64,000 nucleotides of DNA from Alphaproteobacteria bacterium LSUCC0396. GTDB lineage: Bacteria > Pseudomonadota > Alphaproteobacteria > Puniceispirillales > Puniceispirillaceae. The DNA lies in NCBI GenBank assembly GCA_041228345.1, contig CP166131.1, forward strand, positions 558,001 through 622,000, in the 5' to 3' direction. The first letter of the stretch is position 1. Every line of letters begins with the position of its first letter. The translations under genes were made by a program, and so were the position numbers. The notes under the pieces were generated by a model. It searched no databases, had not been told where the DNA came from, and saw nothing but the letters and a program-made list of their open reading frames with translations. Below are positions 60,990-62,298 of the stretch, in pieces.

Positions 60990-61550
60990 TCACTTAGCCA
61001 GCGCCGCGTCGATTGCTTTGCGAAGGCGGGCGCTATTCGGGCCGGTGGTCGAGGCAAACCAATCAACCAAGGCACCATTACCGTCGATCAAATGCTTGTG
61101 GAAATTCCAGCGCGGAACCGCTAATCCGCCATGCGCCTCGGCAATCCATTTGTAATAGGGATGCGCATTCGGGCCTTTGACATGAACGATATCGGCCATT
61201 GGAAAATCAATGCCATAATTGATCGTGCAGAATTCTTTTACCTGTTTGGCATCGTCCAGTTCCTGCCCGCCAAAATCATCGCTTGGAACGCCGATGACGA
61301 CCAAACCCTTGTCCCTATATTCCGCCCACAGGCTCTGTAACCCCTCATATTGACCGGTAAAACCGCACATTGAGGCAGTATTCACCAGCAAAATGACGTT
61401 CCCCTGAAACTTTGACAATGGTAAATTATCACCATCAATACTAGAAAAACTGAAATCATGGGCAGTGGCAGCAACGGCAGGCATCACGCCTCCTTTAAGC
61501 AGAAAAATGGCAAAAATCAGCAATAGTCGGTGGATCAGTTTTCGTGTCAT
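60990..61550 (-). CDS. exported glutathione peroxidase family protein
   Basis: The family reduces peroxides with glutathione or thioredoxin. The start at 61550 gives 186 aa with a signal peptide ending Ala-Val-Ala-Ala. The peroxidatic Cys lies in Asn-Thr-Ala-Ser-Met-Cys-Gly-Phe-Thr-Gly-Gln-Tyr, the Gln in Phe-Gly-Gly-Gln-Glu, and Trp-Asn-Phe-x-Lys follows later, so the Cys-Gln-Trp-Asn tetrad is complete. The enzyme is Cys-type, not seleno. Export to the periplasm is unusual but known for this family. Confidence 0.9.
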   Translation of the reverse strand: MTRKLIHRLLLIFAIFLLKGGVMPAVAATAHDFSFSSIDGDNLPLSKFQGNVILLVNTASMCGFTGQYEGLQSLWAEYRDKGLVVIGVPSDDFGGQELDDAKQVKEFCTINYGIDFPMADIVHVKGPNAHPYYKWIAEAHGGLAVPRWNFHKHLIDGNGALVDWFASTTGPNSARLRKAIDAALAK

Positions 61551-61657
61551 GCGGTGATAGTTAGGTGCCGCGGTCAGCAAACGCAAGTCCCCAACGCCCC
61601 CGCATCACTAAAAAACACATGACAGCATGGTATTTTACTCATAGGCTATCCTGGCTT

Positions 61658-61681
61658 ATGCAACTTATGAAAAGGAGGTGA
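61658..61681 (+). CDS. possible 7-codon leader peptide ending Arg-Arg
   Basis: ATG CAA CTT ATG AAA AGG AGG TGA encodes Met-Gln-Leu-Met-Lys-Arg-Arg. Its AGG AGG TGA codons are also the Shine-Dalgarno of the next ORF, so ribosomes reading the leader would cover or expose that site. The two tandem AGG codons are rare in many Proteobacteria. Translation is not proven. Confidence 0.3.
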   Translation: MQLMKRR

Positions 61682-61685
61682 TCTG

Positions 61686-61766
61686 ATGTCTAGTGATACA
61701 CGGTTTGGTTCAAACGGCTTGGTTTCTGTTTTGCGGGCTCAGGAGCAGCCTTCTGGGCGCGCCTAG
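61686..61766 (+). CDS. 26-aa small ORF with perfect Shine-Dalgarno
   Basis: The ORF encodes a small, uncharged-to-basic peptide (begins Met-Ser-Ser-Asp-Thr-Arg-Phe-Gly, ends Gln-Pro-Ser-Gly-Arg-Ala) without a membrane segment. AAGGAGGTGATC, a 12-base complement to the standard 16S rRNA 3' end, ends four bases before the ATG. No family is recognised. It is followed after 58 bp by an intrinsic terminator. The strength of the binding site argues for real translation. Confidence 0.5.
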   Translation: MSSDTRFGSNGLVSVLRAQEQPSGRA

Positions 61767-61824
61767 AGCAGAAATTGACAGAGATAACATCCTGAAAAAC
61801 AGGTCTGTTTGATGACCGATCACG

Positions 61825-61852
61825 AAAAGGGGGGCAAACGCCCCCTTTTTTT
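61825..61852. terminator. bidirectional intrinsic terminator
   Basis: GGGGGC and GCCCCC pair around AAAC, flanked by four A on the left and seven T on the right. On the plus strand it ends the small transcription unit; on the minus strand it lies 70 bp after the rhodanese gene and would end that too. Confidence 0.9.
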
Positions 61853-61923
61853 ATCGCCCAAACAAATTTATCGCGTCACTGGCAATCGCGGACAGAAATG
61901 ATCTAACCGTGCATCCGGCGGCC

Positions 61924-62298
61924 CTACGCCTCAGATTTACCGCCAGCCGCAATCCACTCAGAGATGCCGCCAACATTAGACACATTATGATAGCCCATTT
62001 CCCTTAGTGTTTTTCCGGCAAGCGCGGCCTGCCCGCCAGCACCACAAACAAGAACGATGTCGGCGTCTTTGGACAATTTGGCATTGAAATATGGCAGATT
62101 TTCATCAGCGGCAAATTCCAGAAAACCTCGCGGAATGCGAAGCGCACCGGCGATTGTGCCGCTTTTCGCGATATCACCGCTGTCGCGTACATCAATAAAT
62201 AAACTGGCACCAGCGTCATGTTTTGCAATGCCGTCCGCCGGCGAAATGCGCGGCACGATCGCATTGGCTTCTTCAAGATATTGTTTAGCATTTTTCAT
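61924..62298 (-). CDS. rhodanese-like sulfurtransferase
   Basis: The 124-aa single-domain protein has Leu-Phe-Ile-Asp-Val-Arg-Asp near 33-39, Gly-Ala-Leu-Arg-Ile-Pro-Arg-Gly near 51-58 and the active-site loop Cys85-Gly-Ala-Gly-Gly-Gln-Ala. It probably carries persulfide sulfur or has a related role in the cytoplasm. No signal peptide is seen. It ends before a shared terminator. Confidence 0.9.
   Translation of the reverse strand: MKNAKQYLEEANAIVPRISPADGIAKHDAGASLFIDVRDSGDIAKSGTIAGALRIPRGFLEFAADENLPYFNAKLSKDADIVLVCGAGGQAALAGKTLREMGYHNVSNVGGISEWIAAGGKSEA

Follow-up and report, generated by a model that had tools for sequence, protein, structure and literature searches.

A short unit on the plus strand of the window (the whole 64-kb stretch of DNA that was analysed) combines an unusually complete ribosome-binding sequence with a frame of just 26 codons, promoter-like boxes and a terminator of its own. 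The question that it raises is what such a unit is kept for: the peptide, the RNA, or the act of translation itself. The features on which the argument depends are the following.

61619-61624, plus strand: -35-like box ATGACA, by sequence reading
61642-61647, plus strand: -10-like box TAGGCT, 17 nt 3' of the -35-like box, partly kept in the genus
61672-61683, plus strand: extended Shine-Dalgarno (SD) sequence AAGGAGGTGATC, 12 nt that can pair with the 16S 3' tail as generally found in bacteria; conserved in the class
61686-61766, plus strand: 26-codon frame MSSDTRFGSNGLVSVLRAQEQPSGRA with TAG stop; frame and stop position selected, residues not
61693-61705 (61693-61697 and 61701-61705), plus strand: 5' arm of helix P1, by duplex and covariation
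61737-61745/61750-61758, plus strand: stem of hairpin P2, with loop CAGC at 61746-61749, by folding and comparison
61814-61823, plus strand: 3' arm of P1, immediately 5' of the terminator, by duplex and covariation
61829-61852, plus strand: intrinsic terminator, a GGGGGC/GCCCCC hairpin followed by T7, by sequence and folding
61657-61846, plus strand: full extent of the element in the match to model R1 (66 bits, E = 7.6e-16)

The original prediction had singled out AAGGAGGTGATC as a 12-base anti-Shine-Dalgarno match, and the match is real: it is the sole perfect one in the 64-kb window, where seven sites lie within two mismatches of the SD sequence (mean of shuffles, 3.3). The 2.59-Mb genome likewise holds this 1 perfect site, together with 11 one-mismatch sites (reversed control, 2). 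A search of the source genome assembly (listed completeness, 100%) for an SSU rRNA gene found none, so that the complementarity refers to the 16S 3' tail of bacteria in general, the sequence that was used for the match. The ATG of the 26-codon frame is at 61686, such that the gap to the SD is two bases rather than the four originally given, and the spacing from GGAGG to ATG is 7 nt. The SD does lie at the end of a 7-codon frame (plus strand, 61658-61681), as had been claimed, yet this exact frame is not conserved, being present in 2 of the 29 order copies read. A four-codon mini-frame 5' of the main frame (ATG or TTG, then AAA AGG AGG, with the TGA within the SD) occurs in 15 of these 29 copies (61667-61681 in the window; L001-L016).

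The upstream promoter that had been proposed is represented by the two promoter-like boxes. TGACA stands 49-54 nt 5' of the SD in 12/12 same-genus copies (and in 4/17 other order copies read), but the two boxes are absent from the list given by a consensus promoter scan of the window. The downstream terminator stands as described, a hairpin with T7, which the terminator scan lists on the minus strand only. Folding of the RNA 61650-61856 gave z = -5.15 relative to shuffles, and a Pfam search with the 26-aa peptide gave no match.

The unit is flanked by two minus-strand genes, coding for a glutathione peroxidase (60990-61586) and a rhodanese-like protein (61924-62298), an arrangement that bears on the leader-peptide switch suggested at the outset. 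Were the frame a leader peptide or an attenuator, it would control a gene downstream. Leaders of this kind usually consist of a short frame with a terminator after it, and a same-strand downstream gene is found in 30 of the 85 non-redundant sequences with both neighbours callable (9/94 sequences, at edges, were left out). Against this, the downstream gene runs the other way in the window, as it does in 55/85 sequences. Among the neighbouring proteins of ten diverse loci (10 proteins upstream and as many downstream; 10 of 15 listed loci), nothing recurs save generic methyltransferase domains in two (L207, L094). Since a terminator follows the frame and the next gene lies on the opposite strand, the leader-peptide switch is not supported, and control of a downstream gene must be considered highly improbable. 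The neighbours offer a single functional hint, namely a glutathione peroxidase gene that is adjacent to the element in two of the family's genera (60990-61586 in the window and L013:1890-2483).

Homology to RF01867 and distribution in relatives

By sequence comparison, the unit and the RF01867 (CC2171) family of Rfam are divergent homologues, and the homology is solid. A search of the window at the Rfam gathering score returned four tRNAs only, and an E-value scan of the region gave 12 weak matches, which include CC2171 and otherwise lie mostly on the terminator. The window scores 12.9 bits against RF01867 (E 1.6, model 1-159), far below the gathering score of 75, and hence is not a member of the family by the Rfam rule. 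The link is provided by relatives. Model R1 was built from alignment A1, comprising 35 sequences chosen from 57 listed and intended to lie outside the window's order, among them L183, L153, L130 and L205, all of which are above the RF01867 cut-off. R1 matches the element over its full length (model 1-179 of 179), the next match in the window being 2.7 bits. Six A1 rows (L119, L129, L155, L164, L182, L207) are not clearly outside the window's order by title, and a sequence-only profile of the remaining 29 rows finds 61671-61834 at E = 2e-13 (next, 0.29).

The model matches 27/41 genomes, the source genome included, at E <= 0.1; two of these matches, at 16 bits, are likely due to chance. Half of the relatives tested against RF01867 itself (10/20) reach its gathering score, with 75-92 bits, and 11 of 18 further relatives match it full length at 29-54 bits (E <= 0.023). 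The consensus line of RF01867 can itself be read as an open frame, which begins at its GUG and reaches a UAA after 22 codons. CC2171 was reportedly detected as a Caulobacter transcript by Landt in 2008. A 215-nt RF01867 transcript is listed from Mesorhizobium RNA-seq in the accessible part of PMC5596092. In the portions of the literature searched, the relevant mentions of CC2171 are the Rfam 15 paper and this Mesorhizobium list; CC2171 is nowhere treated there as coding, and neither the coding nature nor the wide spread of the family was found described in them.

Conservation of the frame and the binding site in relatives, which the original prediction had set beforehand as its refutation test, was found. 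In a DNA search of 61 genomes, strong matches (E < 1e-20) appeared in 12 of the 15 genomes of the genus, its own included, and the three genomes without a match (G001, G005, G012) are 51-72% complete. Outside the genus, it is mainly the SD-start block that aligns. When as many as two mismatches are allowed, 82/136 genomes of the order contain the core pattern, including 34 of the 43 near-complete ones, against 1 match for the reversed control. Of the 385 genomes sampled from the class, 71 carry the strict core pattern, AAAGGAGGTGATCNNNTGTC (reversed control, 0), and 314 lack it; in a phylum sample, the strict pattern is found in 44/86 genomes of the class and in 0/213 others of the phylum.

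A pattern scan of named genomes matched at least 118 stretches, and among the matches listed are those of Sphingomonadales, Rhizobiales, Caulobacterales, Acetobacteraceae and other alphaproteobacteria, as well as a few MAGs titled only Proteobacteria. Two matching MAGs are titled Gammaproteobacteria (L182, L207), and may represent either misnamed bins or true exceptions. Single genomes with two core copies were seen in two cases (G072, G491). A separate two-mismatch pattern search was rejected for counts as noisy, with 47 of 142 genomes matching and 7 in the reversed control. Five copies, L141, L180, L197 (Azospirillum), L226 and L272, keep the SD and an MSHG start (with one SD base changed in L272), and their frame continues to a total of 56-59 aa, in which the N-terminus is signal-peptide-like and the tail rich in serine and alanine; judging from the sequences, these Azospirillum-type copies are possibly cases of a regulatory frame turned protein.

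Reading frame and RNA structure

Removal of near duplicates left 94 sequences for analysis of the frame (77 for the blind alignment and the folding ensembles). The first in-frame stop follows after 17-31 codons in 89/94 of them and in none before codon 14, while the other two frames have their first stop in the 17-31 range in 15 and 16 of 94, and shuffled sequences in 24%. Within the 18-aa set, the stop is kept at the same position in the form of different codons (TGA 18, TAA 17, TAG 2). The start is kept in a similar manner, the base before TG at 72 strict-pattern sites being A in 39, G in 29, T in 4 and C in 0.

These features of start and stop are relevant to the proposal of a trans-acting sRNA or sponge, in which the G-rich 5' end would pair with other RNAs, such as sRNAs with CCUCC loops, and the frame would be secondary. 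RF01867 is indeed listed as an sRNA gene, conservation is highest in the 5' region of the element, and rhizobial sRNAs with CCUCCUCCC loops exist, as reported in the available text of PMC3927594. A sponge, however, has no need of a start base before TG that is A, G or T and never C, nor of a conserved stop, and the conservation covers GUGAUCC, a fit for the 16S tail and not for CCUCC loops. This alternative is thus considered improbable.

The residues encoded by the frame behave differently from its boundaries. The pN/pS ratio is 0.79-1.33 in seven clades, every interval including 1, and the intervals are wide in small clades (0.40-7.40 in meso). Third codon positions account for 25-35% of the changes in five clades, and both the length and the sequence of the peptide vary by group, from 18 aa beginning with MSHG to 26 aa beginning with MSS. 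From these comparisons, the start, the frame and the stop are under selection, without detectable selection on the residues. RNA-level constraint can lower pS, which may mask weak selection on the protein.

In P1, codons 3-8 pair with a box directly 5' of the terminator. The helix starts seven bases from the start, and in the window is composed of 61693-61697/61819-61823 and 61701-61705/61814-61818. For the structural comparison, 35 of 188 sequences had no recognised terminator and were dropped; in the 153 sequences that were kept, the P1 arms of the same RNA pair at -10.2 kcal/mol, versus -6.0 for swapped and -6.4 for shuffled arms. A count of the longest pairing run proved a weak test of P1 and was set aside (own arms 5.9, swapped 4.5, shuffled 4.5), and covariation was therefore tested on a blind alignment. 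In this 3' alignment of 77 sequences, blind to the 5' arm, frame positions 8 and 10-13 track consecutive partners with z 4.4-8.2, and position 9 is invariant. In A1, 86.3% of the P1 cells are paired, the covariation score is 0.633 versus 0.246 (sd 0.026) in shuffled and at most 0.130 in slid alignments, and two-sided changes number 61 versus 22.6 in shuffles. The number of A1 pairs with a two-sided change, 6 versus 4.9 in shuffles, is not above chance (116 of 500 shuffles reach 6). The outermost pair fails in 15/35 A1 sequences, and thermodynamic folding places P1 above 50% in just 34/77 RNAs. On this comparative evidence, P1 is a helix with covariation across the class.

Of the 45 sequences of the MSS/MSN/MSR type, 30 have the second element, the P2 hairpin, with a CARC loop shortly 5' of the stop, compared to 0.8% of shuffles. 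Its box is in frame 0 in 22/30, where it codes for EQP-like residues, and in other frames in 8/30. Between the SD and the body of the RNA, complementarity shows no more than a slight enrichment (mean z -0.53; controls 0.03 and 0.12).

Translation and the peptide

A Rhizobiaceae-type form of the element, matched by records of Rhizobium, Sinorhizobium and Shinella, has the SD GGAAGG, a weaker match. In its exact form it occurs in 15 of 121 genomes of the family and is missing from 106/121. A CCUUCC complementary to this SD is found no more than 30 nt 3' of the stop in 17/18 distinct frames (raw count; L289-L307, L313, L314). The Sinorhizobium meliloti copy, L313, lies at CP090106.1 1061115-1061293, in a record labelled pSymB and with no annotated feature beneath it. 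It encodes MSNEISDLVMDMGEVKESRQPSA, a peptide of 23 aa with a pI of 4.18.

A peptide of the same length and pI, SEP1, is described in the accessible sections of PMC10117765 as conserved in Rhizobiaceae. It had the highest translation efficiency (TE) of 54 unannotated translated sORFs and was represented by one peptide spectrum; tagged SEP1 gave a Western signal, plus a slow band which was called non-specific (PMC10117765). Because both length and pI match, the S. meliloti homologue is likely to be SEP1, and its efficient translation is supported through this match, within what the excerpted source reports. In Caulobacter, two earlier ncRNAs are in fact translated, according to the available passages of PMC4117421, whose text does not name them.

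The evidence on translation also bears on a second alternative, an ordinary small-protein mRNA, whose functional peptide would tolerate sequence change as long as, for example, charge or length is kept, and whose RNA structure would merely tune translation. This proposal gains from the likely identity of the S. meliloti homologue with SEP1, translated and with a detected tagged product in the published excerpt (PMC10117765), as well as from the kept frame and stop, the predominance of frame 0 in the P2 box and the extension of Azospirillum-type loci to a signal-peptide-like protein. On the other hand, pN/pS is near 1 in all seven clades, third positions take 25-35% of the changes in five clades, the P2 box is out of frame 0 in eight cases, and lengths and sequences differ by group. 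A functional peptide of this kind therefore appears rather unlikely, though it is the more credible of the alternatives to a translated regulatory RNA. The original suggestion of a small protein made at high level is supported with respect to translation, via the SEP1 match, but the residues of the peptide are not conserved.

Proposed mechanism and comparison with known systems

The reading preferred here, tentatively and as somewhat short of probable, is that the unit gives a stand-alone RNA, some 190-200 nt long, which works as a micro-mRNA or translated sRNA and in which ribosome loading and termination matter more than the peptide. Among the three roles put forward originally, that of an RNA which engages ribosomes directly fits best. 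Since the residues drift and yet start, frame and stop are maintained, ribosome traffic is proposed to set the state of the RNA. We infer a conformational switch and a purpose for it, as follows. The near-perfect SD would capture a 30S subunit despite the closing of P1 right behind the start codon, whereupon the ribosome would open P1, read some 18-30 codons and terminate 5' of the 3' box. P1 and P2 would thus be open in a translated RNA, and P1 closed in an idle one. In the Rhizobiaceae, an idle RNA, or one with no terminating ribosome, would have its SD free to pair with the CCUUCC just after the stop. With its state set by ribosome traffic, the RNA would therefore report ribosome availability, as a sensor, or buffer it.

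A more general form of this mechanism, possible and on the whole doubtful, would be that of a class-wide RNA with a content-free frame, kept for the act of translation, in which conformation and lifetime report free 30S subunits and the peptide is a by-product. In nearly all copies, the peptide is too short to leave the exit tunnel, given the length of the tunnel. If translation itself is the function, the element would represent a natural bacterial example of a content-free frame as a regulatory part, and it would sit in a class in which many start codons are without an SD (75.4% of Caulobacter genes, as stated in the accessible part of PMC4117421). The family had been filed as a Caulobacter sRNA; it is wide in Alphaproteobacteria, and its frame boundaries are selected, its residues not. 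Three separate records, CC2171, SEP1 of S. meliloti and the unit in the window, are thereby joined into one testable object.

The closest known system is RF01867, which shares with this unit the 5' end AACAA..GAAAGGAGGUGAUCC.NUGUC, a long-range helix between the segment following the start and the box preceding the terminator, the size and the terminator. The two differ in that the family is an sRNA gene by its Rfam type, whereas a selected reading frame is seen here. The SEP1-like S. meliloti copy departs from the window in its SD, GGAAGG rather than GGAGG, and in the CCUUCC 3' of its stop. A likeness to rnTrpL/peTrpL, a dual-function sRNA as presented in the excerpts of PMC10117765, is found in the combination of a small RNA with a translated short frame; rnTrpL, however, is leaderless and derived from an attenuator, while in the window an extended SD is accompanied by promoter-like boxes and a terminator that belong to the unit itself. 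The rhizobial sRNAs SmelA075 and SmelA099, as far as the accessible text of PMC3927594 describes them, are similarly small alphaproteobacterial RNAs built on the SD/anti-SD code, yet they carry anti-SD loops, CCUCCUCCC, and the unit in the window is of the opposite sign, an SD with a start codon. Relative to the class of dual-function sRNAs in general, the family to which the unit belongs displays both selection on the frame and selection on the structure, with a putative separate function at the RNA level.
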